Source of the DNA: Oerskovia enterophila
Lineage (GTDB): Bacteria; Actinomycetota; Actinomycetes; Actinomycetales; Cellulomonadaceae
NCBI RefSeq assembly: GCF_001692445.1
Contig: NZ_MAQA01000035.1
Span: 1 to 54,318, forward strand
Direction of reading: 5' to 3'
Length of the DNA stretch: 54,318 nucleotides
Shown: positions 13,840 through 49,613 of the stretch, piece by piece
Layout of the letters: every line of letters starts with the position of its first letter
Numbering within the stretch: position 1 is the first letter of the stretch
Program-made: the position numbers and the translations under genes
The notes under the pieces: generated by a model
The model's input: only the letters and a program-made list of their open reading frames with translations
The model's database searches: none
What the model was told of the DNA's origin: nothing

Positions 13840-14505
13840 TCACCGGCTGGCCCACAGCAGGCCGCGCTCGATCACGGTGCGCAGGTCCGGGCTCTCGAGG
13901 TCCGAGAGCTGGTGACCCGGCGCGCACACGAAGATCTTGCCCGCGCCCCACTGCCGGGTCCAGATCGAGGGCGACACCACGGGCGAGCGCCACGGCGAGT
14001 CGGCCGTGGGCTGGATCGTCGTGGTCGCGAGGACCTCGTTGAGCGAGTCCGCGAGCACCCAGTACTGCTCGGAGTTCAGGTGGAACGGGCCGAGCCCGGC
14101 CACGAGCGGATGGTCCGCGTGCTCGGGCAGGACCTCCACGGTGTGCTCGACCAGGTCGCCGGGGTGGGCGGCGAACTGCCCACCGAGCATCTGCAGGTAG
14201 TCCGTGGCCATGCGGAACGAGTCGATGATCCCGCCGTGCCAGCCGGCGAGACCGGCGCCGTTGGTCACCGCCTCGCGCAGACCACGCATCTCGTCGGGCA
14301 GGATCTCGCCCATGGTCCAGGACTGGACGATCAGGTCGACGCCCGCCATGTACCCGGCGTCGGCATAGACCTCGAGCGAGGACTCGACGTCGACGTCGAA
14401 GCCCGACTCCTCGAGGAAAGGGAGGAAGAGGTCGGTGCTCTCCTCGGGGGAGTGGCCTGGCCATCCTCCCCGGACGATCAGGGCCCGACGGTCCGGCACG
14501 CTCAT
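13840..14505 (-). CDS. Cytoplasmic single-domain ThuA protein
   Basis: 221-aa protein of the ThuA family (type-I glutamine-amidotransferase-like fold). Rhizobial ThuA works with the dehydrogenase ThuB in use of trehalose and other disaccharides through 3-keto derivatives. There is no signal peptide, in contrast to the three secreted giants that start with the same domain. Visible segments are LIVRGGWPGHSPEES, LIVQSWTMGEI, LAGWHGGIIDSF and DHPLVAGLGPFHL. The ATG at 14505 follows a GGAGGA box by about four bases. The gene is 17 bases downstream of the ROK regulator, so the two form an operon. I infer that it acts on an imported keto-sugar conjugate; the exact reaction is unproven. Confidence 0.85.
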   Translation of the reverse strand: MSVPDRRALIVRGGWPGHSPEESTDLFLPFLEESGFDVDVESSLEVYADAGYMAGVDLIVQSWTMGEILPDEMRGLREAVTNGAGLAGWHGGIIDSFRMATDYLQMLGGQFAAHPGDLVEHTVEVLPEHADHPLVAGLGPFHLNSEQYWVLADSLNEVLATTTIQPTADSPWRSPVVSPSIWTRQWGAGKIFVCAPGHQLSDLESPDLRTVIERGLLWASR

Positions 14506-14522
14506 GAGTCCTCCGTTGGCGC

Positions 14523-15710
14523 TCACGCGATCAGGGCATCGATCGCTGCGGGAGACAGTACGTGATCGATCGCCATGGCGCTTGCACCGAGCACGCCCGC
14601 CTGCCCGCGAGCCTGCGACGTGACGATGCGCAGGTGCTGCGTGGCGAGGGGGAGCGAGCGCTGGTAGACGATCTCGCGGATGCCCGCGATCAGGTGCTCC
14701 CCGGCCTCCGCGATGATGCCGCCGACCACGATCATGGAGGGGTTGAGCAGGCTCACGCACGCCGCCAGGACGGCCCCGATGTCGCGACCGGCCTGACGGA
14801 CGGCGTGGCTCGCCATGAGGTCGCCGCCGCGCACGAGCGTGACGACGTCGCCGCTGTTGAGGGCCTCGAGGCCCTCCTTCTTCAGCGCGCCGGCGATCGC
14901 CTGGCCGCTCGCGACGGCCTCGAGGCAGCCGATGTTGCCGCACCGGCAGGGCGTGTCGGTCGCGTTGGGGACGGCGATGTGGCCGATGTCGCCCGCGGCC
15001 CCCTGGGCGCCGCGGCGGAGCTCGCCGTCCGAGATGACGCCCGCGCCGATGCCCGTGGCGACCTTGACGAAGAGCATGTCGCTGACCGTGGGCCACGCCG
15101 TGCGGTGCTCGCCGAGCGCCATGATGTTGACGTCGTTGTCCACGAGGACCGAGGCGTCGAAGGTCTTGCCCAGGATCGCGGGGACGTCGACGTCGTCCCA
15201 CGCGGGCATGATGGGCGGGTTGATGGGCCGACCGGTCGAGTGCTCGACCGGGCCGGGCAGGCCGACGCCGACGCTCACGAGGTCCTTGAGGTCGCGTCCT
15301 GCCGCGGCGATGAGCTTCTCGCCCGTCTCCGCGACCCAGGCGAGGACCGTCTCCGGTCCCTCGGAGATCGACAGGGGTGCGTCGATCTCTGCGAGGACGT
15401 TCGAGGCGAGGTCCGTGACCGCGAGGCGCGCGTGCGTCGCGCCGAGGTCCACCGCGAGGACGATCCGTGCACCGGGGCTGAAGGCGAAGGTCACCGGGGG
15501 GCGCCCACCGGTCGAGCTCGCCTCGCCCGCGGGCGCGATGAGCCCCGAGGCCATCAGCAGGTCGATGCGGGCGGCGATCGTGGACCGCGCCTGCCCGGTG
15601 ATCGCTGCGAGGTCAGCCCGTGTCCGGGGTTGGCCGTCGCGGAGCAGCTGGAACATGTCCCCGGCGCCTGTGGGGCGTGGGGCGAACTTCAGCAGTTCCT
15701 CGGTGGGCAC
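14523..15710 (-). CDS. ROK-family transcriptional repressor
   Basis: 395-aa sugar-responsive regulator. Residues about 15-75 form a MarR-like winged helix (TRADLAAITGQARSTIAARI); residues about 85-390 form the ROK sugar-binding fold with VDLGATHARLAV, a DNDVN segment, GDIGHIAV and the zinc motif CRCGNIGCLE near residue 255. NagC, Mlc and XylR are known members that bind a sugar or sugar phosphate and leave DNA. It is divergent from the ABC transporter at 16074 and co-directional with thuA. A CTTnTG-N12-CAnAAG motif at 15776 overlaps the -35 of its own predicted promoter, and copies of the motif sit on both transporter promoters, so it is the likely local regulator and autoregulator. Confidence 0.92.
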   Translation of the reverse strand: MPTEELLKFAPRPTGAGDMFQLLRDGQPRTRADLAAITGQARSTIAARIDLLMASGLIAPAGEASSTGGRPPVTFAFSPGARIVLAVDLGATHARLAVTDLASNVLAEIDAPLSISEGPETVLAWVAETGEKLIAAAGRDLKDLVSVGVGLPGPVEHSTGRPINPPIMPAWDDVDVPAILGKTFDASVLVDNDVNIMALGEHRTAWPTVSDMLFVKVATGIGAGVISDGELRRGAQGAAGDIGHIAVPNATDTPCRCGNIGCLEAVASGQAIAGALKKEGLEALNSGDVVTLVRGGDLMASHAVRQAGRDIGAVLAACVSLLNPSMIVVGGIIAEAGEHLIAGIREIVYQRSLPLATQHLRIVTSQARGQAGVLGASAMAIDHVLSPAAIDALIA

Positions 15711-15756
15711 GATGTATCACGGAGCCTCTCGTTACTACGCAGTGGTGGCGCTCTCT

Positions 15757-15786
15757 AGCGTACTGCGATCTTCGGCTTTTGCTTGA
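15757..15786 (-). promoter_or_regulatory. Putative promoter of the ROK-thuA operon
   Basis: On the minus strand TCAAGC (15786-15781) and TACGCT (15762-15757) are separated by 18 bases, about 47 bases upstream of the ROK start. The -35 lies inside the 24-bp operator, which would give autoregulation. Confidence 0.45.
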
Positions 15787-15811
15787 CGATCGACAGAAGC
15801 CGACCTAGCGT
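15776..15811 (+). promoter_or_regulatory. Operator O1 with a right-facing promoter (P1)
   Basis: Palindrome-like arms CTTTTG (15776-15781) and CAGAAG (15794-15799) with 12 bases between. TTGACG at 15783, a 17-base spacer and TAGCGT at 15806 form a right-facing promoter in the same register as P2 and P3. A transcript from P1 would carry a leader of about 255 bases, beginning with a hairpin at 15819-15840 (GCCGCGGC twice). The rest of the 363-base gap 15711-16073 shows no gene. Confidence 0.7.
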
Positions 15812-16030
15812 GTGGTTTGCCGCGGCAGCGACGCCGCGGCGGACGGAGTCTCGCACCTCCACCTGTCAGTAGCGTGAGAACCCCGACATTCTGCCCTTGT
15901 TGCCTCTCCTGATCGACTCGTCCCGGCCTGCTCGCGCGGCCGGACGTGAGTCAGAGTCTCGGCCGGCGCGCCGCGTCCCCGCGCCCACTTTTGCTGGTCA
16001 CGGGTCGGTAACGAAGCAAAAGATCGAGAC

Positions 16031-16066
16031 CTTCTGATTGACGCTCGTCAAAAGGTCGGCTAGTTT
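16031..16066 (+). promoter_or_regulatory. Operator O2 and leaderless promoter P2 of operon A
   Basis: Arms CTTCTG (16031-16036) and CAAAAG (16049-16054). TTGACG at 16038, 17-base spacer, TAGTTT at 16061; the ATG at 16074 follows seven bases later. Extra CTTTTGC (15988-15994) and GCAAAAG (16016-16022) half-site-like copies lie upstream. Predicted ROK binding would block -35 recognition. Confidence 0.8.
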
Positions 16067-16073: not shown

Positions 16074-17600
16074 ATGGTCAACGCAGACCCTCAGCCCACC
16101 AGGCCGCTCCTGCAGATGCGGAGCATCGTCAAGCAGTTTCCCGGCGCCCGAGCACTCGACGGCGTCGATCTCGACATCCTCCCCGGAGAGGTGCACTGCC
16201 TCCTCGGGCAGAACGGTGCCGGCAAGTCGACCCTCATCAAGGTGCTCGCCGGTGCACACCAGCCCAACGAGGGGCAGATCCTCATCGACGGGGAGCCCGT
16301 CACCATCCCTCACCCCGTCGCCGCGCTCAAGCTCGGCGTCGCCACCATGTACCAGGAGCTCGACGTCGTCGACGGTCTGACCGTCGCCGAGAACATCTAC
16401 CTGGGGCACGAGCTGTCGACCGTCGGCTTCTCCAACCGGCGCCTCGTCGCCAAGAACACCCGCGCGCTCATGAAGCGGCTCGGGCACCCCGAGATCTCGC
16501 CCCACCGCGAGGTGGGGGAGCTGTCCGCCGCGGGCAAGCAGATCGTGTCCATGGCCCGTGCCCTCTCGCACGACGCTCGGGTCATCGTCATGGACGAGCC
16601 CTCCGCGGTGCTCGACAGCGAAGAGGTCGAGAACCTCTTCCGCGTGGTCCAGGAGCTCACGTCCAGCGGCGTCGCGATCGTCTACATCTCGCACCGGCTC
16701 GAGGAGATCCGGCAGATCGGCGACCGGATCACCGTCCTCAAGGACGGGCGCACGGTCGCTCAGAACCTCCAGGTCGCGCAGACGCCCACCGCCGAGCTCA
16801 TCAAGCTCATGACGGGCCGCGCGGTCGACAACGTCTTCCCGGCCCGCGAGCCGGTCGCCGAGGAGGCCGAGGTGCTGCTCGCGGTCGAGTCGCTCGGCCT
16901 CAAGGGCGAGTTCTCGGACGTTTCCTTCGAGGTGCGTGCGGGCGAGGTCGTCGGCTTCGCCGGTCTCGTCGGCTCGGGCCGCTCCGAGATCCTCGAGACC
17001 GTCTACGGCGCGCGCCGCCCGACCGAGGGGACCGTCACGGTCGGGGGCGCGAAGCTCCGGGCCGGATCGGTCGCCGCGGCGGTCGACGCAGGCATCGGCC
17101 TGTGCCCCGAGGAGCGCAAGAGCCAGGGGCTCCTCCTCGACGAGCCCGTGTACCGCAACATCACGCTCTCGACGTTCGGGCGCTTCGCCAAGAGCGGGTT
17201 CCTCGACGAGCAGGCCGAGAGGTCGGCCGCGCAGGAGCAGGCGGTCGCGCTCGACCTGCGGCCCGCCGGGGTCGAGCGGCACGCGCGGACGCTGTCCGGC
17301 GGGAACCAGCAGAAGGCGCTCCTGGCGCGCTGGCTCGTCCGCGGCTGCCGCGTCCTGCTGCTCGACGAGCCCACCCGTGGCGTCGACGTCGGGGCGCGCG
17401 CCGAGATCTACACGCTCATCCGCGACCTCGCGGCCTCGGGGGCTGCGGTCCTCGTGGTCTCGAGCGAGATCGACGAGGTGCTCGGTCTGTCAGACCGCGT
17501 CCTCGTGATCTCGGAGGGCCGCGTCGTCCACCAGGGACCAGCAGATTCGATCGACGAGCACGGTGTGCTCGACCTCGTCATGGAAGGAAGTGCCGCGTGA
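16074..17600 (+). CDS. Sugar ABC transporter, duplicated ATP-binding subunit (RbsA/XylG/MglA type)
   Basis: 508-aa energy-coupling subunit with two nucleotide-binding domains, powering uptake of a monosaccharide-like solute. The first domain has Walker A GQNGAGKST, Walker B VIVMDEPSA; the second has the relaxed Walker A GLVGSGRSE, signature LSGGNQQK and Walker B LLLDEPTRG. The unequal halves are normal for CUT2 transporters. Start ATG 16074 is leaderless, seven bases after TAGTTT. The GTG start of the permease overlaps the stop (GTGA). Gene order ATPase-permease-binding protein-dehydrogenase suggests import followed by oxidation. Substrate not deducible from sequence alone; context favours a keto sugar or pentose-like compound. 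Confidence 0.94.
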   Translation: MVNADPQPTRPLLQMRSIVKQFPGARALDGVDLDILPGEVHCLLGQNGAGKSTLIKVLAGAHQPNEGQILIDGEPVTIPHPVAALKLGVATMYQELDVVDGLTVAENIYLGHELSTVGFSNRRLVAKNTRALMKRLGHPEISPHREVGELSAAGKQIVSMARALSHDARVIVMDEPSAVLDSEEVENLFRVVQELTSSGVAIVYISHRLEEIRQIGDRITVLKDGRTVAQNLQVAQTPTAELIKLMTGRAVDNVFPAREPVAEEAEVLLAVESLGLKGEFSDVSFEVRAGEVVGFAGLVGSGRSEILETVYGARRPTEGTVTVGGAKLRAGSVAAAVDAGIGLCPEERKSQGLLLDEPVYRNITLSTFGRFAKSGFLDEQAERSAAQEQAVALDLRPAGVERHARTLSGGNQQKALLARWLVRGCRVLLLDEPTRGVDVGARAEIYTLIRDLAASGAAVLVVSSEIDEVLGLSDRVLVISEGRVVHQGPADSIDEHGVLDLVMEGSAA

Positions 17601-18649
17601 GCGAGCAGGAGGTGTCCACCGCAACCGTCGTGGACGGGTCGGCGCACGCCGGGAGCTCCGGTTCATCCGGTCCCGCGTCGGCGCGCCGGAATTTGTTCAA
17701 TGGATCGATGGGTCGGAACATCGGCCTGGTCCTCGCCCTCGTGGCGCTCTGCATCGTCGGCTACGTCACGGCCGGAGAGCGGTTCGCGAGCATCGACAAC
17801 GTCCTGACGATCCTCCGCATGGCCGCCGTGATCGGCGTCCTGAGCATCGGCATGACCTTCGTCATCACGGCAGGGGGCATCGACCTCTCGGTCGGCTCCG
17901 TCATGGGCCTGTCGACCGTCTGGGCCAGCACGCTCGCGACCCAGACCATGGCTGCCGACACCCACTGGATCGTCATGGTCGGCACGGCCCTCGCGGTCGG
18001 TACGGTCTGCGGTCTCGTCAACGGCGTCCTCATCGCCTACGGCAAGGTCGTCGCCTTCATGGCGACCCTCGCCATGATGGTCGGCGCCCGAGGGCTCGCC
18101 GAGATGATCTCCAACCGGCAGACCCAGATCGTCACGGTCAAGCCCTTCCTCACCTTCTTCCGCGCCGACTTCATCGGGATCCCGGTCCTCGTGTGGATGT
18201 TCGTCGTGGTCGCGGTCGCGGGGTGGATCCTCCTCAACCGCACGACGTTCGGCCGACGCACCATCGCGGTCGGCGGCAACCCCGAGGCCGCGCGCCTCGC
18301 GGGCATCAAGGTCAAGCGTCACCTCATGTACCTCTACTGCCTCGTGGGCTTCACGGCCGGCATCGCCGCGGTCATGATGCTCGGCCGCACCACGGCCGGT
18401 TCCTCGACGAACGGCCTGTTCTACGAGCTCGACGTCATCGCGGCCGTCGTCGTCGGCGGGACGCTCCTCGTGGGCGGCCGCGGCACGATCGTCGGCACGG
18501 TGTTCGGCGTCCTGATCTTCATGACGCTGACCAACATCTTCACGCTGAACAACATGTCGACCTCGGCGCAGAACGTGGCGAAGGGCGTGATCATCGTGGT
18601 CGCCGTGCTCCTCCAGCAGCGCTTCGCGTCGCGCACCAGATCCGACTAG
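17597..18649 (+). CDS. Sugar ABC transporter permease (RbsC-like)
   Basis: 350-aa integral membrane protein of the CUT2/branched-chain permease fold, with about eight to ten hydrophobic spans and the family signature ITAGGIDLSVGSVMGL and GGRGTIVGTVFGVLI. A Ser/Gly-rich cytoplasmic N-terminus of about 35 residues precedes the first span. The GTG at 17597 overlaps the ATPase stop by three bases, so it is translationally coupled. As only one permease gene is present, it should act as a homodimer, unlike operon B which encodes two different permeases. Confidence 0.93.
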   Translation: MSEQEVSTATVVDGSAHAGSSGSSGPASARRNLFNGSMGRNIGLVLALVALCIVGYVTAGERFASIDNVLTILRMAAVIGVLSIGMTFVITAGGIDLSVGSVMGLSTVWASTLATQTMAADTHWIVMVGTALAVGTVCGLVNGVLIAYGKVVAFMATLAMMVGARGLAEMISNRQTQIVTVKPFLTFFRADFIGIPVLVWMFVVVAVAGWILLNRTTFGRRTIAVGGNPEAARLAGIKVKRHLMYLYCLVGFTAGIAAVMMLGRTTAGSSTNGLFYELDVIAAVVVGGTLLVGGRGTIVGTVFGVLIFMTLTNIFTLNNMSTSAQNVAKGVIIVVAVLLQQRFASRTRSD

Positions 18650-18773: not shown

Positions 18774-19838
18774 ATGTCCGCTCGTACCCGTACCCCGATG
18801 CCACGCCGCCTGGCCCTCGCGACCGTCGCGCTCACCTCGGTCGCGCTGTTCGCCTCGGCCTGCACCTCGAACACGCCGGCCCCCGCGGAGACCAGCGCCG
18901 CTGCCGTCGCCCCGGGCGCGTCGTCGGACAACGACGCCTCGGGCGAGAAGGTCGTCATCGGCTTCTCGGCGCCCGCCGCCGACCACGGCTGGATGGGTGC
19001 CATCACCAAGGCCGCCCAGGCCGAGGCCGCCAAGTACGACGACGTCGACCTCAAGGTCGCCGAGGGCACCAACGACGTCAACCTCCAGATCAGCCAGATC
19101 GAGACGTTCATCAACGACGGCGTCGACGCGATCGTCATCCTCCCGTTCGACGGCGCGGCACTCACCGAGGTCGCGACCCAGGCCATGGAGGCCGGCATCA
19201 CGGTCATCAACGTCGACCGCGAGTTCTCGAGCCCGTTCGCGGCCCGCTCGACGGTCCTCGGCGACAACTACGGCATGGGCGTGAGCGCCGGCACCTACAT
19301 CTGCGAGCAGCTGGGCGACAACAAGGACGCGGTCGTCGCGGAGATCGCCGGGATCGACTCGCTGCCCCTGACCCAGGACCGCAGCAAGGGCTTCGCCGAC
19401 GCGCTCGAGGGCTGCGGGCTCGAGGTCAACAACCGCGTCGCGGCAGACTTCACGGTCCAGGGCGGCGAGCAGGCCGCTGCCAACCTGCTCCAGGCCGCAC
19501 CCAAGATCGACGCGATCTGGAACCACGACGACGACCAGGGCGTCGGCGTCCTCGCGGCGATCGACAACGCGGGCCGTGACGAGTTCTTCATGGTCGGCGG
19601 CGCCGGCTCGGCGAACGTCATGCGCTCGATCGAGGCCGACGACACCGTCCTCAAGGCGACGGTCATCTACCCCTCGACCCAGGCGGCCGACGGCATCAAG
19701 CTGGCCCGTCTGATCGAGCACGGCAAGTCGATGAGCGACCTCGCCTCGATCGGCGTGCCGCGTCAGATCCAGCTCTTCGCGCCGGTCGTGACCAAGGACA
19801 ACGTCGACGAGTACCTGCCGTCGGCCTTCGAGTCCTGA
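18774..19838 (+). CDS. Sugar-binding lipoprotein of operon A ABC transporter
   Basis: 354-aa periplasmic-binding-protein type I (RbsB-like, Peripla_BP_4) lipoprotein. The signal peptide ends in a lipobox with Cys30 (FASAC), anchoring it outside the membrane; a Ser/Ala/Pro linker follows to about residue 55. The body shows VVIGFSAPAADHGWMGAI, FINDGVDAIVILPFDG, ITVINVDREF and IWNHDDDQGVGVLAAI, typical of ribose/xylose/rhamnose-binding proteins. It receives the solute and hands it to the permease at 17597. RBS GGGAG lies upstream of the ATG at 18774. The HDDDQG segment replaces the more usual ND of ribose binders, so specificity may differ. Confidence 0.92.
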   Translation: MSARTRTPMPRRLALATVALTSVALFASACTSNTPAPAETSAAAVAPGASSDNDASGEKVVIGFSAPAADHGWMGAITKAAQAEAAKYDDVDLKVAEGTNDVNLQISQIETFINDGVDAIVILPFDGAALTEVATQAMEAGITVINVDREFSSPFAARSTVLGDNYGMGVSAGTYICEQLGDNKDAVVAEIAGIDSLPLTQDRSKGFADALEGCGLEVNNRVAADFTVQGGEQAAANLLQAAPKIDAIWNHDDDQGVGVLAAIDNAGRDEFFMVGGAGSANVMRSIEADDTVLKATVIYPSTQAADGIKLARLIEHGKSMSDLASIGVPRQIQLFAPVVTKDNVDEYLPSAFES

Positions 19839-19903: not shown

Positions 19904-19926
19904 CACCACGAAAGGAAGTGCCTGAG

Positions 19927-21102
19927 ATGGCAGAAAACGGTCACCCGACCCTCGGGATCGGCATGGTCGGGTACTCGTTCATGGGGGCTGCCCACTCGCA
20001 GGGATGGCGCACCGCACCGCGGTTCTTCGACCTGCCGCTCGCGCCCGAGATGCGCGTGCTGGCCGGCCGCAACGCCGCAGCCGTCACGGCGGCTGCGCAC
20101 AAGCTCGGCTGGGACGACGTCGAGACGGACTGGCGCAAGCTCGTGGCGCGCGACGACGTCGACCTGGTCGACATCTGCACACCCGGCGACACGCACGCCG
20201 AGATCGCGATCGCGGCCCTCGAGGCGGGCAAGCACGTCCTGTGCGAGAAGCCGCTGGCCAACACGGTCGCCGAGGCCGAGCTCATGGTCGCGGCCGCCGA
20301 GGCCGCCGCCGCGCGTGGCGTGCTCTCCACGGTGGGCTTCACCTACCGTCGGGTCCCCGCGGTCCAGCTCGCCCGCCAGCTCGTGGCGGACGGCAGGATC
20401 GGCACGATCCGCCACGTGCGCGCCCAGTACCTCCAGGACTGGATCGCCGACGAGAACGTGCCGCTCTCGTGGCGCCTCGACAAGACCAAGGCCGGCTCGG
20501 GTGCCCTGGGCGACATCGGCGCACACATCATCGACCTCGCGCAGTTCATCACGGGCGAGTCGATCACGGGGGTCTCGGGCATCCTCGAGACGTTCGTCGA
20601 CGAGCGTCCGATCGCCACGGACTTCTCGGGCCTGTCCGGCACGGGCGGCACCGAGAAGGGCCCCGTCACGGTCGACGACGCCGCGGTCTTCCTCGCGCGG
20701 TTGACGGGCGGCGGGCTCGGCGTCTTCGAGGCCACCCGTTTCGCCTACGGCCGCAAGAACGCGATCCGCCTCGAGATCAACGGATCGCGCGGGTCGGTCG
20801 CGTTCGACTTCGAGGACATGAACGTCCTCCACTTCTTCGACGCCTCGGACGACGCGCAGGTCGCGGGCTTCCGACGCATCGTCGTGACCGAGCCGCAGCA
20901 CGCGTACATCGCGAGCTGGTGGCCCGCCGGTCACGGGCTCGGGTACGAGCACGCGTTCACGCACCAGGCCGTCGACCTCGTGCGCGACGTCGCGGCCGGT
21001 ACTCAGCCCACCCCGTCCTTCGCCGACGGCCTGGCCGTCCAGCGAATCCTCGAAGCCGTCGAGCGCAGCGCTGCGTCCGACAGCGACTGGCAGCAGATCT
21101 GA
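19927..21102 (+). CDS. Gfo/Idh/MocA family NAD(P)-dependent sugar dehydrogenase
   Basis: 391-aa cytoplasmic oxidoreductase. The N-terminal Rossmann fold has GIGMVGYSFMG; the catalytic Lys lies in CEKPL and the conserved Asp/His pair in GDIGAHIIDLAQF of the C-terminal alpha/beta domain. Characterised relatives oxidise inositol or glucosides; the rhizobial ThuB and several glycoside C3-dehydrogenases are in this family. ATG 19927 has AAAGGA about ten bases before; GTG 19918 is an alternative within the ribosome site. It is the last small gene of operon A and is followed by the first giant ThuA protein. I infer oxidation of an imported glycoside or reduction of a keto sugar. Confidence 0.9.
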   Translation: MAENGHPTLGIGMVGYSFMGAAHSQGWRTAPRFFDLPLAPEMRVLAGRNAAAVTAAAHKLGWDDVETDWRKLVARDDVDLVDICTPGDTHAEIAIAALEAGKHVLCEKPLANTVAEAELMVAAAEAAAARGVLSTVGFTYRRVPAVQLARQLVADGRIGTIRHVRAQYLQDWIADENVPLSWRLDKTKAGSGALGDIGAHIIDLAQFITGESITGVSGILETFVDERPIATDFSGLSGTGGTEKGPVTVDDAAVFLARLTGGGLGVFEATRFAYGRKNAIRLEINGSRGSVAFDFEDMNVLHFFDASDDAQVAGFRRIVVTEPQHAYIASWWPAGHGLGYEHAFTHQAVDLVRDVAAGTQPTPSFADGLAVQRILEAVERSAASDSDWQQI

Positions 21103-29081: not shown

Positions 29082-29117
29082 CTTTTGCTTGACGCTCGAC
29101 ATAAGTCGCCCTACGGT
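29082..29117 (+). promoter_or_regulatory. Operator O3 and leaderless promoter P3 of operon B
   Basis: Arms CTTTTG (29082-29087) and CATAAG (29100-29105). TTGACG at 29089, 17-base spacer, TACGGT at 29112; ATG 29125 follows by seven bases. The stretch from 29077 is almost identical to that from 15771 over about 36 bases. An AT-richer zone lies just upstream (29030-29080). Confidence 0.85.
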
Positions 29118-42800: not shown

Positions 42801-42893
42801 GCGATCGAGGCGGGTTCCGTCACGGTCACCACGACGATCGGGGACCGGACGTCGACGTACACGGTCGACTACGCGGCTGCTTCCTGCAGCTGA
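36825..42893 (+). CDS. Giant secreted ThuA / quinoprotein sugar dehydrogenase / PKD protein (giant 2)
   Basis: 2022-aa exported protein, the largest in the window. Order seen: signal peptide (1-33, giving a His-rich mature end HDGPH); ThuA (about 42-265, FTKTTQFRHSEAI); sugar-dehydrogenase propeller (270-725) with candidate catalytic His413 in EPGHTGGSL but without the vicinal cysteines of giants 1 and 3; PKD (735-815); the LGHDAHAHP module (815-925); CBM6-like region (935-1065); bacterial Ig-like (1065-1150); a DUF1349-like module (1150-1340); two concanavalin-like modules (1350-1550, 1555-1765); two OmpL47-type repeats (1770-1930); the conserved C-terminal domain (1933-2022, ending AASCS). 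ATG 36825 follows TGGAGG by eight bases. It lies 128 bases after the epimerase and may be the last gene of operon B. Confidence 0.87.
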   Translation: MKAARLPLRGRAVAALTIGALAFTLAPVTMAAAHDGPHEPGDDRKVLIFTKTTQFRHSEAITQGTPVLEAAFADVGIASDHTEDSSVFTDAGLAEYDALVMFQTSGDPWNADQKAALERYQQAGGGIVAIHNATDMRGNYGWWDDMIGALMPGHAATGNSPGLPGTVRVEDRVHPSTSHLDQRWNRADEWYNYSANVRGSAHVLATMDESTYDAGGNKMGADHPISWCKPYDGGRAWMTGMGHFGAHFTGEPDLVQHIVGGVQWASGQVAGDCGGTDWGQFEKVALDTNTSAPFGMDVAPDGRVFFTELVRGQIRVYDPRTQNTSTAITIPVYSGGEDGLLGIALDKDFATNGYLYQYYSPASANDSDPANFFNRISRFTVTDGGPGGTVIDPASEKVLIEVPAGRLPDEPGHTGGSLIFDDRTGDLYIGVGDDVNPHSEPSGGYAPISERPGQQHDARATSANTNDLRGKVLRIHPEADGTYTIPEGNLFAPGTEKTLPEIYAMGFRNPFRFTIDPATGNLGVADYSPDNGSDNLANRGPAGIAEWNYIQEPGFFGWPLCMGKNEPFRDVDYRTNPVTVGAFFDCANPVNDSILNTGLTQLPPAQPADMYYGYQRTSAPGVINAGGGLAPMGGPFYSYDADLVSDTKFPEYYDGKPFFYEWARNKMYSIDLKDATPKGAAVEKVNPFLSNEQFLAPIDSTFGPEGALYVLDWGGGFGRDNPNSGLHRIDYISGSRSPVAKPAATPDSGTAPLTVTFDGSASTDPENEALTYAWDFDGDGTTDSTEAKPTHTYTENGVFDARLTVKDPSGKVGTATAPITVGNTRPEVDFNLPPTGSFFDFGDRIDWDVSVTDAEDTSIVDENVIIQPALGHDAHAHPSEPLYGTTGSVETGLGGGHGEDMNVFYVLDARYTDGGGEGGVPALTGSDTTLVFGKKREAEFQTASQGTTQLPSRDVEGGGSVITGKDGAWSSYDPFNLHQISALSLRVSAAQAGTVELRRDAPDGELLATASVPETGLGTFTDVRVDVADPGESFTLYVVFPGAGERRLNFIEAHGKGISATTRPEVVVTAPEAGVQLEQGEITVSADATDAENTVTQVEFFVNGQSIGTDTSAPYSTTWTVSADNYYKLTAVATNDKGLTTKSRIVMAQVGDLFAGMKTFTNANGTFEQLSEGKYLVSSAGANMWQGTDEYSAIYKEAGADEKWSATVKVNSQGNTNGSAKAGLIVRNDVTQPGKSPGYAALGIRPNGGFEWLRGNAAGQLVTSSAASSSSYPAWMRIERDGDLYTASWSKDGENFTQIGDPVSLPGAEAVQDIGMFVTAHSSATSAVEFQDFSFDDDPVDPTEPGTGTPPQCAAQKSDEFDAASINTGRWTVVRTAPGKSLTVADGKAVLPVVQGDIDGAVPGPISYLGQPAPAGAWEIQTKVEVPLARHWQHAGLLVHVNDNEYTKFAFTKNQSGARFLEFQTETGGNRTWHGQTDVAANFPSSVYLKLTSTGTAITAAYSADGQTWTAIAGSAPVKANATFGMVAAGDTGTADSVALFDWFKVTPDSTDDGTREPSDEFEGTALDGCRWNNVVRYDASKVEVAGGELRITTQPGDINNNNPVSPRNFVLQAAPEGDWVAETRFKAPLLHRWQYAGLMAYGDDDNYVKLDVVAKNQPGTALNLGAELASEKNAASSGGNRQLEIADTTESGYWYLRMEKVGNTYQGWVSDGGVNWTSLGAPVTNDAALTSFGLVAIGPEQEVPVTVAFDWFHVTTGDEDTQAPVVTVAQDPAAGASGWNTGAVTVSATATDDVSQTPSIEVKVADGDWAPYTAGVALTTDGEHTLAFRASDEAGNVSEEVAHVVKIDTTVPTATAELAERTVTLAGADAGSGVERVEYRLADTAEGEWLTYGEPVVVGDGAVEVSYRAVDVAGNVSEPLTLSVPAVEGGVSAEVVAKTQCTAGKVLVNVRVVNTDDAPATIKVSTPFGTKTFTGVAPGKSASQTFSSRLGAIEAGSVTVTTTIGDRTSTYTVDYAAASCS

Positions 42894-43103: not shown

Positions 43104-43910
43104 GTGGCGCAGAAGACCGCAGCACGACGCAGCAAGGCGGACCTCGCAGCCCGGTCGGCGACCGCTCGGGGAGCGGGACCCCGGTCCGGGGACGGTGCCG
43201 GCCGTCCCCAGCAGCGGCCACCGGAGCGCGCGAGCGCCCGGTGGCCGTGGAACCTCTCGCGCGCTCGTCTCGCGTGGCTCGTGGTCGCCGCGGTCGCGGT
43301 GGTCGCCCTGGTCGTCGTGGCGGTCGTCTGGGCCGTGACGCGAGGGCCCGACGACGGAGCGTCCGGCGCGTACGCCGTCGACCCCGCGCGCGTGGCCGAG
43401 CTCGAGGCCGCCGAGGTGGTGCGCGACGCCGAGAACCTGGGCGTCGTGACCGACTTCGCGGTCTCCGCCCAGGAGAGGCTCGTGCCGACCATGCACGAGC
43501 TGTCCGTGGCGCTGCCGCTCGACGGCGCGCCCGGGACCCCGGCGACCCCTGAGCAGCTCGCCGCGTGGCGGGACCAGCTCGCGGCCCTGACGGCCGAGGC
43601 CGAGGCCCTCCCGACGGGCGCGTCGGGGTACAACGTCACGCGCAACGGGCTGGGCGTCTCGATCGCGCTGCTGGGTGACGCGCTCGACACGCTCGAGCTC
43701 GCCGAGGGGTCGGCCGAGCCGGCCCGGGCGCAGCTCCTGGCGCTCGCGGCCGACCTGCGCCTGCGCGCCGCGGACACCTGGAGCATGGCCGCGACCCAGC
43801 TCGACGACCTGAGCGTCGCCGCAGACCAGGGGCACGTCCACGTGTTCCTCCCGCTCCACCCGGACGACGCAGGCGACGGCGCCGCGAGCCTGGGGGAGAG
43901 CGACCACTAG
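43104..43910 (+). CDS. Single-span membrane protein of unknown function
   Basis: 268-aa protein with a positively charged N-terminus (about 50 residues), one transmembrane span (about 57-78, LVVAAVAVVALVVVAVVWAV) and an external Ala/Leu/Glu-rich domain of about 190 residues, mostly helical in character (VARVAELEAAEVVRD-like heptads, LRLRAADTWSMAATQLDDL). I do not recognise a family. GTG 43104 has AGGAA upstream. It sits between giants 2 and 3 and has its own strong downstream hairpin. It may be an adaptor at the cell surface for the secreted enzymes, but this is only positional inference. Confidence 0.6.
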   Translation: MAQKTAARRSKADLAARSATARGAGPRSGDGAGRPQQRPPERASARWPWNLSRARLAWLVVAAVAVVALVVVAVVWAVTRGPDDGASGAYAVDPARVAELEAAEVVRDAENLGVVTDFAVSAQERLVPTMHELSVALPLDGAPGTPATPEQLAAWRDQLAALTAEAEALPTGASGYNVTRNGLGVSIALLGDALDTLELAEGSAEPARAQLLALAADLRLRAADTWSMAATQLDDLSVAADQGHVHVFLPLHPDDAGDGAASLGESDH

Positions 43911-43913
43911 ACC

Positions 43914-44060: not shown

Positions 44061-47000
44061 GTGACCGTACGACACCGAAGGAGACGGGCAGGGGTGAGCG
44101 CGCTCCTGGCGCTGACCCTCGCTGCCCCGACCCTGGCCCTGACGGCGACACCCGCCGCCGCCCACGACGAGTTCTCCGTGCTCGTCTTCTCCAAGACCGC
44201 CGGGTTCCGGCACGACGCGATCCCGGCCGGGATCGCGACCATCAAGCAGCTCGGCGTGGACAACCACTTCGCCGTGACCGCGACCGAGGACGCGGGGGCG
44301 TTCACCGAGGAGAACCTCGCGGGCTACGACGCCGTCGTCTGGCTCTCGACGACCGGCGACGTGCTCAACGGCGAGCAGCAGGCCGCGTTCGAGGCCTACA
44401 TCGCGGACGGCGGCGGCTACGCGGGCGTGCACGCCGCGTCCGACACCGAGTACGACTGGCCCTGGTACGGCGAGCTCGTGGGCGCGTACTTCTCGGCCCA
44501 CCCGCAGAACCAGACCGCGAACGTCGTGGTCGCGGACAAGGACCACCCCTCGACCGCGCACCTGCCGGCGACGTGGGAGCGGTACGACGAGTGGTACAAC
44601 TTCCGCGAGAACCCGCGCGGGGACGTGCACGTGCTCGCGACCCTCGACGAGGCGACGTACTCGCCGGGCGGTGGCGCGATGGGTGCAGACCACCCGACGG
44701 CCTGGTGCCAGGACGTGGCCGGCGGCCGCTCCTGGTACACGGGGGGTGGCCACACGCAGGAGTCCTACAGCGACCCGGCGTTCGTCCAGCACCTCCTGGG
44801 CGGGATCCAGACCGCCGCGGGCGCGGTCGAGGCCGAGTGCGGCGCGACGGTCGAGAGCTCGTACGAGCAGATCACGCTCGCGAAGGGCGCCGAGAAGACC
44901 GGCGAGCCGATCGCGCTCGCGGTCCTGCCCGAGGGCGACGTCCTGCACACCTCGCGCGACGGCCGGGTCTGGTACACGACTGCGGACGCGACGACCTCGC
45001 TCGCGGGCACCATCCCGGTGTACTCGCACGACGAGGACGGCCTCCAGGGGGTCGCGATCGACCCGGACTTCGCCGAGAACCGCTGGGTCTACCTCTACTA
45101 CGCCCCCCGGCTCAACACGCCTGCGGGCGACGCCCCGGAGTACGGGACGGGCCCCGAGTCGTTCGAGGCCTTCGACGGCTACAACCAGCTCTCGCGCTTC
45201 ACGCTCACCGACCAGAACACGATCGACCTGGCGAGCGAGAAGAAGATCCTCGAGGTCGAGGCCTCGCGCGGCACGTGCTGCCACGCGGGCGGTGAGATCG
45301 ACTTCGACGCAGAGGGCAACCTCTACCTGTCGACGGGGGACGACACGAACCCGTTCGCCTCGGACGGCTACACGCCGATCGACGAGCGGGCGACGCGCAA
45401 CCCGGCCTACGACGCGCAGCGCTCGTCGGGCAACACCAACGACCTGCGGGGCAAGCTCCTGCGCATCACCATGAAGGACGACGGGACGTACACGGTCCCG
45501 GAGGGCAACCTCTTCGCTCCCGGGACGGACAAGACCCGCCCCGAGATCTACGCGATGGGCTTCCGCAACCCCTTCCGGTTCTCGGTCGACAAGGCCACGG
45601 GCTACGTGCACCTCGGTGACTACGGGCCCGACGCGGGCGGGGCGAACCCGAACCGCGGCCCCGGTGGGTCGGTCGAGTTCAACGTCATCACCGAGCCCGG
45701 CAACTACGGCTGGCCGTACTGCGTGGGGGACAACGTCCCCTACGTCGACTACGACTTCGCGACGGGCACCTCGGGCGCGGCGTTCGACTGCAGCGCTCCC
45801 AAGAACACGAGCCCGAACAACACGGGTCTCGTGGACCTGCCGCCGGCCATCGCCGCCTGGCAGCCCTACGACGGCGGCAACGTCCCGGCCTTCGGCTCGG
45901 GCGGCGAGTCGCCCATGGGCGCCGTGGTCTACAACTACGACCCCGAGCTCGTCTCGGAGACCAAGTTCCCGCAGTACTACGACGGCAAGCCCCTGCTGTA
46001 CGAGTGGGAGCGGCGCTGGATCAAGGAGGCCGTGCTCAACGAGGACGGCAGCCCTGCCGGCTTCGCCCCGGCGCTGACCGGGCTGAACATCCGTCGGCCC
46101 ATGAACCTCGAGTTCGGCCCGGACGGCTCGCTGTACGTGCTCGACTACGGCAGCGGCTACTTCGGCGGCGCCGCGGACTCCGCGGTCTACCGCATCGACT
46201 ACGTCAAGGGCTCACGGTCCCCGGTCGCCGAGATCGAGGCGTCGGTGACCAACGGTGGCGTGCCGCTCGAGGTCGTCCTCGACGGATCGGCCTCCCAGCA
46301 CCCCGAGAACCTGCCGCTCACGTACGCGTGGGACGTGGACTCGGACGGCACGGTCGACTCGACCGAGCCCGTCGTGACGCACACGTACACCGCCAAGGGC
46401 CAGTACACGGCCCGTCTCACGGTCACGGCCCCCGACGGCAAGACGGGCGTCGCGACCACCACGATCACGGTCGGCAACACCGCCCCCGTGGTGACGCTCG
46501 ACCTGCCGCAGGACGGGCAGTTCTTCGACTTCGGCGACCAGGTGCCGTTCACGGTCACGGTCACGGACGCCGAGGACGGGACAGAGGTCGACTGTGACAA
46601 CGTCGTCGTCGAGTACATCCTCGGCCACGACAACCACGGGCACCCGCTCTCGAGCGCGACCGGTTGCGAGGGCGTCCTCACGACCGTCAAGGACGAGGGC
46701 CACGGTCTCGACGCCAACATCTTCGGGGTCGTCAACGCGACGTACACCGACGGCGGAGCCGAGGGCGTGCCCTCGTTGACCGGCGACGACGAGGCCGTCC
46801 TGCACACGCGGACCAAGCAGGCCGAGTACTTCACGGCCCAGCAGGGTGTCCAGGTCGTCGACAAGGCCGCGGCCGAGGGCGCCAAGCAGCTCGGCTACAT
46901 CGCCCCGGGCGACTGGTTCGCGTTCGACCGGATGAACCTCAAGGACATCACGGGCATCTCGGCGCGCTACACGTCGGGCAACGCGGGCGGCCTGATCGAC

Positions 47001-49613
47001 GTCCGCGTCGGAGCGGCGGACGGTCCGCTCCTCGGGACCATCACGATGGGCTCGACGGGCAGCTGGGAGACGCACGCGTCGTCCGACGTCGTGCCGATCA
47101 CGGACCCGGGTGGCACGAACACGTTGTTCTTCGTCGCGCGCTCGGCGTCGGGGGCCACGGGAGACATGTTCGACGTCGACTCGCTCCACTTCGCGGGCAA
47201 GGGGGCGGCGAACAACGTGGCGCCGAGGCTCACCGCGGTCACGGGCACGCCCACCACGGGCGACGCCCCGCTCGACGTGACCTTCACGGCCACGGCGACC
47301 GACGCGGACGGCGACGACCTCACCTACGCGTGGGACTTCGGCGACGGCGGCACCGGGACCGGAGCGCAGGTCGCGCACACCTACACGACCGGTGGCGCGT
47401 TCACGGCCAAGGTGACCGTGACCGACCCGGCCGGCGCCTCGGCGTCGGGCACCGTGAAGGTGACCACGTTCGGTGCGCTCGAGTGCACCGAGCCCGACCC
47501 GCAGCGCGGGCCCGAGGACGAGTTCCTCGGCGCGTCGATCGACGCGTGCCGCTGGGACGTCCACAACTACCGCCCGGACCTCGCCGAGGTGCGCGACGGC
47601 AAGTGGGTCGTCACCACGACCGACGACGACTTCTACGGCACGGCGAACTCGCCCGTGCCCAACATCGTCACGACCGACCAGCCGGGCGACACCTGGACCG
47701 TGGAGACGTCGTTCACGGCGCCGCTCGTCCGGTCGGCCCAGCAGGGCGGTGTCATCGTCTACCTCGACGAGAAGAACTACGTGAAGCTCGACGTGGTCGG
47801 CAACGACGACGGCTCGGTGCGCGCAGAGCTGCGCAGCGAGGTCGGGGACGTCACGCAGAACCCGCAGCCGGGGATCGACAACCTCGCCAAGCCGGTCTAC
47901 GGCGAGTACCAGCTGCGGCTGTCCCGTGCCGGTGACACGTTCACGGGCCAGGTCTCGGTCGACAACGGCCAGACCTGGGCAGTGCTGCCGGGCGGCGTGA
48001 AGAACCCGGCGGCCCAGGACGCCGGGGTCGGTGTCTTCGCGCTCGGCAAGCTCGCGGGCGCGGCGCAGATCGACGTCGCGTTCGACTATGTGCGTCTCGT
48101 GGACGGCACCACGCCGCCCACGTGCGAGGGCACGACGGCGAGCGACACGTTCGAGGGCACCGAGCTCGACGCGTGCCGCTGGTACGTCGTCAACCCCGAC
48201 GCGTCCAAGCTCGCGGTGAGCGACGGCGCGCTGCGCCTGACCACCACGGACGACGACGTGTTCGGCGCGACCAACTCGACCGTGCCGAACATCCTGCGCA
48301 ACAAGATCGCCACGGGTGACCGGTGGACGGTCGAGACGACCATCACGTCCGACCTCACGCAGAACTACCACCAGGGCGGCCTCATGGTCTTCAAGGACCA
48401 GGCCAACTACGTCAAGGTGGGCGTGATCCACAACGGGGCGGCTGCCGGGACCGTGGGCTTCGAGGCACGCAGCGAGAAGGGCGACGTGGTCCAGGACCCG
48501 CAGCCCGGCGTGTCCGACCTGCCGCGCGAGGCCGACAAGACCTACCACGTGCGCCTGACGCGCGACCAGGACACCTTCACGGGCTCCTGGTCGCTCGACG
48601 GCGTCACCTGGACGGACCTCGCACCGGTCACGAACGACACGCTCGCAGGGATCGCGCCGGGGCCGTTCGCGCTCGGCAAGAACCAGACGGCTCCCACGAC
48701 GGTCGCGTTCAGCGACGTCACGTTCGTCGAGGACGAGCCCGAGGTCTGCGAGCCGGCCACGCCCGCGGAGGGCTACCGCATGCTCTTCGACGGCACGGCC
48801 GAGTCGCTCGCCGGCTGGAAGATGGCCGGGCCGGGCGGGTTCGAGCTCCAGGAGGACTGCTCCATGCTGTCCACCGGGGGCATGGGCCTGCTCTGGTACC
48901 CCGAGGAGCTCGAGGCCTACAGCCTCACGCTCGACTGGAAGATGGCCGGGGACGACAACTCGGGCGTCTTCGTCGGGTTCCCCGACCCGGGCAACGACCC
49001 GTGGGTCGCGGTCAACCAGGGTTACGAGATCCAGATCGACGCGACGGACGCCGACGACCGCACGACCGGTGCGATCTACACGTTCCAGAGCGCCGACCTC
49101 GCGGCCCGCGACGCCGTCCTCAAGGCGCCGGGGGAGTGGAACTCGTACGAGATCACGGTCGAGGGGCAGCGGATCCGGGTCTTCCTCAACGGGACCCTGA
49201 TCAACGACTTCACCTCGACCGAACCGTCGCGCGACCTGTCGTCCGGCTACATCGGGCTGCAGAACCACGGCAACGGTGACGACGTCTCGTTCCGCAACGT
49301 CCAGGTCAAGGACCTGACGGCCGAGCCGGAGCCCGAGGTCGAGGTCACCACGACGGTCAGGTCCCAGTGCGTGGGGCGGACCGCCAACGTCTCGGTCCGT
49401 GTGGTCAACGACGAGGACGTCCCCGCGGACATCGTCGTCACGACGCCGTTCGGCACCAAGACCTTCCTCGGCGTCGCGCCGGGGAAGTCCGCGCACCAGT
49501 CCTTCAGCGCGCGTGCCGGCGCGGTGGAGGCAGGGGTCGCACAGGTCACCGCGACGGCCGGGGGTCGGACGACGACCTTCGACGTCGCCTACGGGGCCAC
49601 GAGCTGCGGGTGA
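44061..49613 (+). CDS. Giant secreted ThuA / quinoprotein sugar dehydrogenase / DUF1080 protein (giant 3)
   Basis: 1850-aa exported protein. Order seen: signal peptide (1-32, AAA then His); ThuA (about 35-260); sugar-dehydrogenase propeller (265-716) with vicinal Cys406-Cys407 before candidate catalytic His408 (CCHAGG); PKD (722-805); the LGHDNHGHP module (807-905); CBM6-like (915-1053, GYIAPGDWFAFD); PKD (1055-1135); two concanavalin-like modules (1145-1350, 1355-1560); DUF1080 (1570-1752, YRMLFDGTAESLAGWK, FQSADLAARDAV), now described as a 3-keto-disaccharide hydrolase domain; the shared C-terminal domain (1762-1850, ending ATSCG). GTG 44061 follows AAAGGAG by six bases. It uniquely unites an oxidising module and a candidate 3-keto-glycoside-cleaving module on one chain. 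Convergent with the acetyltransferase across a strong terminator. Confidence 0.88.
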   Translation: MTVRHRRRRAGVSALLALTLAAPTLALTATPAAAHDEFSVLVFSKTAGFRHDAIPAGIATIKQLGVDNHFAVTATEDAGAFTEENLAGYDAVVWLSTTGDVLNGEQQAAFEAYIADGGGYAGVHAASDTEYDWPWYGELVGAYFSAHPQNQTANVVVADKDHPSTAHLPATWERYDEWYNFRENPRGDVHVLATLDEATYSPGGGAMGADHPTAWCQDVAGGRSWYTGGGHTQESYSDPAFVQHLLGGIQTAAGAVEAECGATVESSYEQITLAKGAEKTGEPIALAVLPEGDVLHTSRDGRVWYTTADATTSLAGTIPVYSHDEDGLQGVAIDPDFAENRWVYLYYAPRLNTPAGDAPEYGTGPESFEAFDGYNQLSRFTLTDQNTIDLASEKKILEVEASRGTCCHAGGEIDFDAEGNLYLSTGDDTNPFASDGYTPIDERATRNPAYDAQRSSGNTNDLRGKLLRITMKDDGTYTVPEGNLFAPGTDKTRPEIYAMGFRNPFRFSVDKATGYVHLGDYGPDAGGANPNRGPGGSVEFNVITEPGNYGWPYCVGDNVPYVDYDFATGTSGAAFDCSAPKNTSPNNTGLVDLPPAIAAWQPYDGGNVPAFGSGGESPMGAVVYNYDPELVSETKFPQYYDGKPLLYEWERRWIKEAVLNEDGSPAGFAPALTGLNIRRPMNLEFGPDGSLYVLDYGSGYFGGAADSAVYRIDYVKGSRSPVAEIEASVTNGGVPLEVVLDGSASQHPENLPLTYAWDVDSDGTVDSTEPVVTHTYTAKGQYTARLTVTAPDGKTGVATTTITVGNTAPVVTLDLPQDGQFFDFGDQVPFTVTVTDAEDGTEVDCDNVVVEYILGHDNHGHPLSSATGCEGVLTTVKDEGHGLDANIFGVVNATYTDGGAEGVPSLTGDDEAVLHTRTKQAEYFTAQQGVQVVDKAAAEGAKQLGYIAPGDWFAFDRMNLKDITGISARYTSGNAGGLIDVRVGAADGPLLGTITMGSTGSWETHASSDVVPITDPGGTNTLFFVARSASGATGDMFDVDSLHFAGKGAANNVAPRLTAVTGTPTTGDAPLDVTFTATATDADGDDLTYAWDFGDGGTGTGAQVAHTYTTGGAFTAKVTVTDPAGASASGTVKVTTFGALECTEPDPQRGPEDEFLGASIDACRWDVHNYRPDLAEVRDGKWVVTTTDDDFYGTANSPVPNIVTTDQPGDTWTVETSFTAPLVRSAQQGGVIVYLDEKNYVKLDVVGNDDGSVRAELRSEVGDVTQNPQPGIDNLAKPVYGEYQLRLSRAGDTFTGQVSVDNGQTWAVLPGGVKNPAAQDAGVGVFALGKLAGAAQIDVAFDYVRLVDGTTPPTCEGTTASDTFEGTELDACRWYVVNPDASKLAVSDGALRLTTTDDDVFGATNSTVPNILRNKIATGDRWTVETTITSDLTQNYHQGGLMVFKDQANYVKVGVIHNGAAAGTVGFEARSEKGDVVQDPQPGVSDLPREADKTYHVRLTRDQDTFTGSWSLDGVTWTDLAPVTNDTLAGIAPGPFALGKNQTAPTTVAFSDVTFVEDEPEVCEPATPAEGYRMLFDGTAESLAGWKMAGPGGFELQEDCSMLSTGGMGLLWYPEELEAYSLTLDWKMAGDDNSGVFVGFPDPGNDPWVAVNQGYEIQIDATDADDRTTGAIYTFQSADLAARDAVLKAPGEWNSYEITVEGQRIRVFLNGTLINDFTSTEPSRDLSSGYIGLQNHGNGDDVSFRNVQVKDLTAEPEPEVEVTTTVRSQCVGRTANVSVRVVNDEDVPADIVVTTPFGTKTFLGVAPGKSAHQSFSARAGAVEAGVAQVTATAGGRTTTFDVAYGATSCG

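Follow-up and report, generated by a model that had tools for sequence, protein, structure and literature searches.

Gene content and organization of the cluster

The window analysed here, a stretch of 54,318 nucleotides (contig NZ_MAQA01000035.1, or C35, positions 1-54318) from the 4.65 Mb genome of Oerskovia enterophila, carries at 13.84-49.61 kb a gene cluster that is organized in two separable modules, A and B. Its largest products are three putatively secreted proteins that combine a ThuA domain with a GSDH-type beta-propeller, here called giants 1 to 3. Domain content was determined by Pfam scans of the called genes, accepting families above their cut-off, with NCBIfam used for selected proteins. 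Genes for a cytoplasmic ThuA protein and a ROK-family regulator lie on the minus strand. They are followed on the plus strand by module A, which consists of a three-gene importer (tandem ATP-binding cassette (ABC) ATPase, one permease and one binding protein), then Gfo1, giant 1, a small membrane protein and TIM1. Module B begins with Gfo2, continues with a four-gene importer (tandem ATPase, two permeases and one binding protein) and TIM2, and ends with giants 2 and 3, between which a small anchored protein is encoded.

13840..14505, minus strand: cytoplasmic ThuA-domain protein, 221 amino acids (aa), no signal peptide (Pfam PF06283, 1.1e-42)
14523..15710, minus strand: ROK-family regulator, probable owner of the operator (Pfam ROK, 2.2e-60; palindromes in the divergent promoter region)
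15776..15799, no strand: operator-like palindrome copy 1, CTTTTGCTTGACGATCGACAGAAG (pattern match)
16031..16054, no strand: operator-like palindrome copy 2, CTTCTGATTGACGCTCGTCAAAAG (pattern match)
16074..17600, plus strand: module A importer, tandem ABC ATPase (Pfam ABC_tran, 2 stretches)
17597..18649, plus strand: module A importer, permease (Pfam BPD_transp_2, 6.7e-38)
18774..19838, plus strand: module A importer, sugar-binding protein (Pfam Peripla_BP_4, 5.9e-41)
19918..21102, plus strand: Gfo1, levoglucosan-dehydrogenase-like Gfo/Idh/MocA oxidoreductase (PDB 4h3v, 6a3f; NCBIfam NF052479 under cut-off)
21267..26789, plus strand: giant 1, ThuA-GSDH propeller-PKD-CBM6-PKD-GH43_C2/DUF1349-Big_7-C-terminal module (Pfam)
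27113..27751, plus strand: small protein with signal-like N-terminus and C-terminal membrane segment (no Pfam or NCBIfam family)
27867..28871, plus strand: TIM1, AP_endonuc_2 barrel, probable 2-hydroxy-3-keto-glucal hydratase (Pfam, 9.1e-41; PDB 2zds, 8ro4)
29082..29105, no strand: operator-like palindrome copy 3, CTTTTGCTTGACGCTCGACATAAG, upstream of module B (pattern match)
29125..30387, plus strand: Gfo2, second Gfo/Idh/MocA oxidoreductase, 37% identical to Gfo1 (Pfam, NCBIfam)
30384..32042, plus strand: module B importer, tandem ABC ATPase (Pfam ABC_tran, 2 stretches)
32039..33184, plus strand: module B importer, permease 1 (Pfam BPD_transp_2)
33181..34302, plus strand: module B importer, permease 2 (Pfam BPD_transp_2)
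34409..35635, plus strand: module B importer, sugar-binding protein (Pfam Peripla_BP_4)
35833..36696, plus strand: TIM2, AP_endonuc_2 barrel, ketose 3-epimerase group (PDB 7erm, 6wn6)
36825..42893, plus strand: giant 2, ThuA-GSDH-PKD-CBM6-Big_7-GH43_C2/DUF1349-Ig-C-terminal module (Pfam)
43104..43910, plus strand: small protein, N-terminally anchored (no Pfam or NCBIfam family)
44061..49613, plus strand: giant 3, ThuA-GSDH-PKD-CBM6-PKD-DUF1349-DUF1080-C-terminal module (Pfam)

Every item of the gene inventory given in an earlier, sequence-only reading of this DNA was recovered by Pfam on the called genes. Its statement that the region holds no classical glycoside hydrolase (GH) agrees with the scans, in which no catalytic GH family was matched among the scanned genes of 13840-49613; the GH43_C2 matches in the cluster are lectin-like accessory domains, not catalytic ones. 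The same reading described a self-contained island. The gene cluster stands, as two modules that are also found apart in relatives, but nothing supports a mobile island: the tRNA search of the window found none, the G+C content of the cluster resembles that of its flanks and the scanned genes gave no match to an integrase-type domain, so that "island" should be read as gene cluster.

Intracellular enzymes

The best solved relative of Gfo1 is the uncharacterised 4h3v (2.2e-191). Its second PDB match is 6a3f (6.2e-93), a levoglucosan dehydrogenase labelled as a putative dehydrogenase in the PDB, with which it has YLQDW...SWR...GDI..H in common. The NCBIfam model NF052479 (levoglucosan dehydrogenase) ranks first for both Gfo1 and Gfo2, and by our own reading of the sequences both contain the CEKP and GDI..H motifs. 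For the levoglucosan dehydrogenase LgdA, the available part of one report (PMC10066097) proposes that a Glu and a His are catalytic.

TIM1 matches 2zds (2.7e-169) and, over about 305 residues, 8ro4 (9.5e-35), which is named 2-hydroxy-3-keto-glucal hydratase in the PDB, and is itself a probable hydratase of this kind. TIM2 groups with the ketose 3-epimerases (PDB 7erm, 6.7e-37; 3-keto-D-glucoside 4-epimerase 6wn6, 6.4e-17), and may act as an epimerase or, if the short LgdB1 is a guide, as an eliminase. The locus has two PF01261 barrels, as in the LgdABC pathway, with putative eliminase and hydratase roles. The cytoplasmic ThuA protein gave no match to PDB sequences up to E 0.01; it is 43% identical to a Sinorhizobium meliloti ThuA protein that is encoded beside Gfo/Idh/MocA and ROK genes.

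An oxidative 3-keto route, as put forward in the sequence-only reading, is the best-supported interpretation of these intracellular genes, because Gfo1 is near a levoglucosan 3-dehydrogenase, TIM1 is near 8ro4 and the genes are paired in relatives. This part of the earlier proposal is supported inside the cell; its other part, pyrroloquinoline quinone (PQQ) chemistry on the giants, is not, as described below.

A palindrome common to both modules

Comparison of intergenic regions revealed a palindrome which, searched as a pattern including flanking bases with up to 3 mismatches, has three matches in the window: two in the interval that separates the ROK gene from the first importer gene, and a third upstream of Gfo2. 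It was absent from 100 shuffles of the window. The pattern was drawn from the window copies, and the independent test is therefore its conservation. The palindrome occurs at the corresponding three places in O. douganii, O. turbata and Cellulosimicrobium cellulans; C. arenosum presents two clear sites, and Nocardiopsis has a single one in its ROK-Gfo2 interval. When a relaxed pattern was searched with up to 2 mismatches, 25 of 169 fetched loci, several of which overlap, had a site; single-base shuffles had none. The genera with the palindrome include Oerskovia, Cellulosimicrobium, Promicromonospora, Isoptericola, Nocardiopsis and others. In Serinibacter, the likely start of the giant gene is preceded at about 0.2 kb by a site with 1 mismatch, and the site of Promicromonospora locus L010 precedes a PA14-CBM-DUF1080 protein, with those of L011, L013 and L014 similarly placed.

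The presence of the palindrome upstream of both modules suggests that modules A and B form one ROK regulon, in which the ROK protein would bind the palindrome. The palindrome also offers a handle for seeking regulon members in other genomes.

Conservation and linkage in relatives

The nearest named relatives of the giant 1 ThuA-propeller are those of O. douganii (96%) and O. turbata (95%). With the ThuA-propeller as query, 78 giant loci were collected and their flanks of up to 10 kb were scanned; 21 of these loci are under 20 kb, and some flanks are therefore cut. At least one Gfo or TIM homologue was present in the flanks of 15 loci, the best matches being to Gfo1 in 12, TIM1 in 10, Gfo2 in 4 and TIM2 in 3. 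DUF1080 was found on giants or their neighbours in 8/78.

The two modules can be followed separately. C. cellulans PW has both in identical gene order with all three giants, and C. arenosum has both in matching order, giant 3 being absent from the stretch fetched. Within the flanks fetched, Promicromonospora (4 loci), Isoptericola and Herbidospora carry module A without module B, and Nocardiopsis has module B together with a giant. Some genomes (locus L158) have module B and TIM1 and no giant in the stretch fetched, which indicates that the intracellular part stands alone.

A sample of 198 genomes of the order held TIM1 in 109, Gfo1 in 98, cytoplasmic ThuA in 77, full ThuA-propellers in 18 and TIM2 in 15. 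Giant-bearing genomes were those in which both the ThuA and the GSDH halves matched (18 genomes; 5 of 23 were dropped for partial matches only). TIM1 and Gfo1 lie within 10 kb of each other in 90 of the 98 genomes carrying both, a giant and TIM1 within 20 kb in 13 of the 18 giant-bearing genomes, a TIM2 homologue and TIM1 within 10 kb in 12 of the 15 genomes having TIM2, and cytoplasmic ThuA and a Gfo1 homologue within 10 kb in 32 of the 76 holding both. TIM1 was present in all 18 giant genomes versus 91 of 180 others (Fisher p 1.6e-5, phylogeny ignored). It was also present in 30/30 giant-bearing genomes from named loci, mostly of other orders; this set overlaps the order sample by at least one genome, Serinibacter, that seems shared. 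Lack of co-occurrence in related genomes, which the sequence-only reading had named as telling against its proposal, was not what we observed, since the genes co-occur and are syntenic in relatives.

Architecture of the giants

The three giants have in common ThuA, a GSDH-type propeller, PKD, CBM6 and a lectin-like GH43_C2/DUF1349 domain, while DUF1080 is found in giant 3 only. All three N-termini, read by eye, show a basic segment followed by a hydrophobic one and an A-x-A-type site. The ThuA matches (PF06283) reach 147 to 275 bits against a cut-off of 33.4, and the PDB matches for this domain in giant 1 are 4jqs and 4e5v, both uncharacterised. The DUF1080 domain of giant 3 (PF06439/3keto-disac_hyd; 3e-40, 138.7 bits, cut-off 26.8), with an activity predicted from the match, occupies residues 1613-1791 of the 43938 frame, at about 48774-49310.

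All three giants end in an 84-residue module (26535-26786, 42642-42890 and 49362-49610) for which no Pfam family over cut-off and no NCBIfam match was found. It occurs in 27 other open reading frames (ORFs) of the genome and ends 0-9 residues before the stop in 30/30 cases. Eleven carriers were scanned: six have a GH43, GH92, GH20 or arabinofuranosidase domain, one is a ThuA-GSDH protein, one has an MGH1-like GH domain and three are without a catalytic family. Matches to the module number 49 in C. cellulans PW, 18 in O. douganii, 12 in O. turbata and 0 in Nocardiopsis. It is a candidate assembly or surface module of the cohesin-free "hemicellulosome" reported in C. cellulans F16. A fourth ThuA-GSDH-PKD-CBM6 protein of 1304 aa, also with the C-terminal module, is encoded outside the cluster on contig C1 of the same genome (L171:6376-10287).

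C. cellulans F16 secretes a protein of about 200 kDa, M768_06655 (Xyl_S), with the architecture ThuA-GSDH-PKD-CBM6-PKD, as described in 2015 in the available part of the report (PMC4562250). Its fragment of 118-130 kDa, without about 500 C-terminal residues, acts on p-nitrophenyl (pNP)-beta-Xyl, pNP-beta-Glc and a taxane xyloside; the protein fits no hydrolase family and its catalytic domain could not be assigned by the authors (same source). ThuA ORFs longer than 1,600 aa number three in C. cellulans PW, and all of them are giants of the cluster, with two PKD stretches in giants 1 and 3 and one in giant 2. Because these are the only large ThuA ORFs of PW and the PKD counts fit, M768_06655 is probably an orthologue of giant 1 or 3, an assignment based on size, species and domains and not on the F16 sequence.

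The propeller and the question of PQQ

The GSDH domain is over its Pfam cut-off in all three giants. Residues are given here in sGDH numbering, with the roles that they have in sGDH. On alignment, 24/24 ThuA-propellers retain residues equivalent to His144, Arg228 and Asn229. In contrast, the PQQ ligands Lys377 and Arg408 are replaced in all 24 and in 13/13 propellers without ThuA; both are retained in E. coli Asd. Arg occupies the Arg406 position in 17/24 ThuA-propellers and 0/13 ThuA-less ones, and the Gln246 position is Arg in 24/24. A Cys-Cys pair precedes the conserved His in 22/24 ThuA-propellers and 13/13 ThuA-less ones; vicinal disulfides occur in other quinoprotein folds. The three giants stay far from the TIGR03606 cut-off of 434 bits (78, 52 and 47 bits). 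No pqqE was over cut-off in the own genome (0/1) or the giant-bearing genomes (0/19), and none in 14 control genomes, so this search had no positive control.

Judged by its sequence, the propeller is related to GSDH without being a canonical PQQ enzyme. The PQQ-dependent oxidation that the sequence-only reading had envisaged for the giants is not supported, given the missing ligands and the lack of a pqqE over cut-off.

Replacement of ThuA by an exported barrel

Contig C41 of the same genome (33.8-38.7 kb; L173:3799-8656) encodes a GSDH-PKD-CBM6 propeller giant without ThuA, with the palindrome (1 mismatch) upstream and a TIM barrel with a twin-arginine stretch directly downstream (Pfam TAT_signal 20.4 bits, under the cut-off of 22.7). 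The closest solved relatives of this barrel are 8tcd/8tcr and 8tcs, which we take to be part of the 2024 work on 3-keto glycans.

The order sample held 19 places where only the propeller half matched, some of which may be giants cut at contig ends, and 13 of them (12 fetched plus the own locus) were examined. No ThuA match was found in the 12 fetched loci. The barrel was present in 10 of these, with the own-genome barrel as sole query and a 35% coverage limit, and the palindrome lies about 0.5 kb before the matched propeller domain in 7. Tat- or Sec-like N-termini, recognised by eye, precede the barrel in 9 of the 10 barrel loci; the barrels of L184 appear embedded in a larger protein. With five query proteins and 50% coverage, the barrel was found in 11/13 ThuA-less propeller loci (four loci and the own one matching themselves) versus 4/86 ThuA-propeller sources, which overlap partly (C. 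cellulans, C. arenosum and Nocardiopsis appear twice) and include many close relatives. The four positive sources are Promicromonospora loci, each with a second propeller without ThuA match. Herbidospora loci L057 and L058 present a second propeller followed by separate ThuA and DUF1080 matches instead of the barrel. In L177 and L178, module A has the order ROK, importer, Gfo1, exported barrel, ThuA-less propeller and TIM1.

As the barrel accompanies ThuA-less propellers and rarely ThuA-propellers, ThuA and the exported barrel probably fulfil one and the same function for the propeller. The eliminases and hydratases of 3-keto routes are barrels of this class, and through this swap the 3-keto reading gains extracellular support.

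Comparison with known systems

The sequence-only reading knew of no described actinobacterial system of this kind. This holds for the whole set, which was not found in the open-licence PMC literature; it does not hold for the single protein, since the similar F16 protein was purified in 2015, in the one specific paper on ThuA giants that turned up in that literature (PMC4562250). Xyl_S resembles giants 1 and 3 in being secreted, of about 200 kDa and alike in the first five domains. It differs in that the available part of the paper treats it by itself, suggesting that this component of a hemicellulase complex may represent a new hydrolase family, and mentions no gene cluster, operator or 3-keto link (PMC4562250).

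Of the matched enzymes that have been characterised, LgdA is the nearest to Gfo1, a likeness to the levoglucosan pathway that extends, in the available parts of the sources, to two Gfo/Idh/MocA enzymes, two PF01261 barrels, an ABC importer and nearby ROK/LacI regulators in LgdA-LgdB1-LgdB2-LgdC (PMC7676230, PMC10066097). However, those parts describe neither ThuA nor secreted giants, and Gfo1 and Gfo2 miss the levoglucosan dehydrogenase cut-off. The GlycDH-AtOGE-AtHYD-Gfo operon of Agrobacterium tumefaciens shares the sequence of oxidation, elimination, hydration and reduction, two TIM barrels and a Gfo enzyme, but its oxidation is done by a flavoenzyme and the available part of the report describes no ThuA, giants or ROK operator, the term ThuA being absent from its main text (PMC10628242). 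As far as the accessible sources go, the four-step routes of B. smithii and A. tumefaciens use the same enzyme toolkit as the intracellular genes of the cluster.

The S. meliloti ThuA locus likewise holds ROK, Gfo/Idh/MocA, ThuA and ABC importer genes together; unlike the cluster, its Gfo is about 27-29% identical over part of the length, its importer is annotated as another class and it has no giants. A rhizobial ThuA/ThuB reference gave no match at the expected pSymB coordinates, and this different S. meliloti locus, which may or may not be thuEFGKAB, was used for the comparison.

Bacteroides DUF1080 proteins of the BT2157 type are said, in a 2024 Nature paper, to be 3-keto-disaccharide hydrolases. 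The DUF1080 domain and the 3-keto chemistry are the points of likeness to the cluster, and a Caulobacter DUF1080 protein is predicted to be periplasmic, in the available part of one report (PMC9007349). Here, in contrast, DUF1080 is one terminal domain of one giant, and it was not matched in giant 3 of C. cellulans.

Proposed function and alternatives

We propose, with a confidence balanced about evenly, that the ROK-controlled regulon uses beta-linked plant glycosides or oligosaccharides by redox-assisted elimination and not by classical hydrolysis. The secreted giants would bind glycans outside the cell through CBM6 and the lectin-like domains, where ThuA, paired with the propeller and taking the place held by the exported TIM barrel beside ThuA-less propellers, would cut them. 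The propeller would supply the oxidation, and the two importers would take up products of mono- or disaccharide size. If so, the poorly defined ThuA domain and the orphan, taxane-tested glycosidase activity of Xyl_S become testable parts of one pathway, and the 3-keto glycoside route extends to secreted multi-domain proteins of Gram-positive soil bacteria.

A more specific version, that the secreted ThuA domain is a 3-keto-glycoside lyase whose fused propeller no longer has PQQ and carries out C3 oxidation either transiently or by means of another oxidant, is tentative and appears rather doubtful. The ThuA fold is not known to us for such a reaction. If true, each giant would be a self-contained extracellular machine for oxidation and elimination, a non-hydrolytic alternative to hydrolase complexes, spread over several actinobacterial orders.

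Several observations weigh against the proposal of redox-assisted elimination. Outside the cell, two canonical PQQ ligands are absent from the propeller and the cluster offered no other recognisable extracellular C3 oxidase; in the part fetched, locus L049 has a ThuA-less propeller with neither barrel nor separate ThuA. Inside, Gfo1 (370 bits) and Gfo2 (155 bits) miss the NF052479 cut-off of 650 bits, and TIM2 may be an ordinary epimerase. As to linkage, the flanks of up to 10 kb are free of Gfo and TIM homologues at 63/78 giant loci, TIM1 is common in the order regardless of giants (109/198), its base rate was measured within the order, and the Fisher tests ignore phylogeny. With up to 2 mismatches, the palindrome was found neither in the module-bearing loci L049, L069, L156, L158, L164 and L165 nor in L177 and L178, where the barrel replaces ThuA. 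The F16 precedent is also ambiguous, in the part of the paper available (PMC4562250): M768_06655 was assigned by native purification and mass spectrometry, and DUF1349/GH43_C2, present in giants 1 and 3, is absent from its 2015 domain list. The fragment is not faster per mg than the complex on the taxane (0.026 versus 0.030 umol/min/mg) and its kcat is far lower (0.061 versus 13.2 per s), so a contaminating hydrolase is possible.

The strongest alternative, a real possibility although clearly the less probable one, is that the giants are glycosidases of ordinary mechanism, from an undescribed hydrolase family, which free sugars while Gfo, TIM and ThuA proteins serve as a co-regulated salvage of anhydro- or keto-sugars. 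In the available text, the activity of the F16 protein is that of a beta-xylosidase/beta-glucosidase, and a redox cofactor is not mentioned (PMC4562250). The lack of canonical PQQ ligands, the 63 giant loci without Gfo/TIM genes nearby and the resemblance of the importers to monosaccharide types would fit as well. It accounts less readily for the complementarity of ThuA with an exported barrel of the 3-keto elimination/hydration class, for the palindrome common to both modules and for DUF1080 on giants or neighbours in eight loci.

Gfo/Idh/MocA and AP_endonuc_2 proteins with an importer of this type are an inositol/allose pattern, and the cluster might be one for inositol or a rare monosaccharide (IolG/IolE/epimerase-like), with the giants as unrelated neighbours. 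This appears improbable: TIM1 matches IolE weakly (46 bits), but the NCBIfam cut-offs for the IolG/IolE families are missed (46 of 290 and 111 of 355 bits), the scanned genes gave no match to an IolB, IolC or IolD family, and synteny and the palindrome tie the giants to the cluster. Least probable, and very unlikely, is that the giants resemble PQQ glucose dehydrogenases and oxidise glycans at C3 (or C1) with scavenged PQQ, as the GSDH match and the three kept residues might suggest, given the two lost ligands that E. coli Asd keeps, the low TIGR03606 scores and the pqqE result.

Neighbouring genes

A GH65-family gene (Pfam) lies at 301-3420, near the left end of the window and outside the cluster. 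Homologues of the small membrane-associated proteins encoded beside the giants also occur next to giants elsewhere, those of 27113-27751 in 8/78 giant loci from several genera and those of 43104-43910 in 5/78. A long ORF at 11623-13701, without any Pfam match, has homologues that adjoin the cluster in Oerskovia and C. arenosum.

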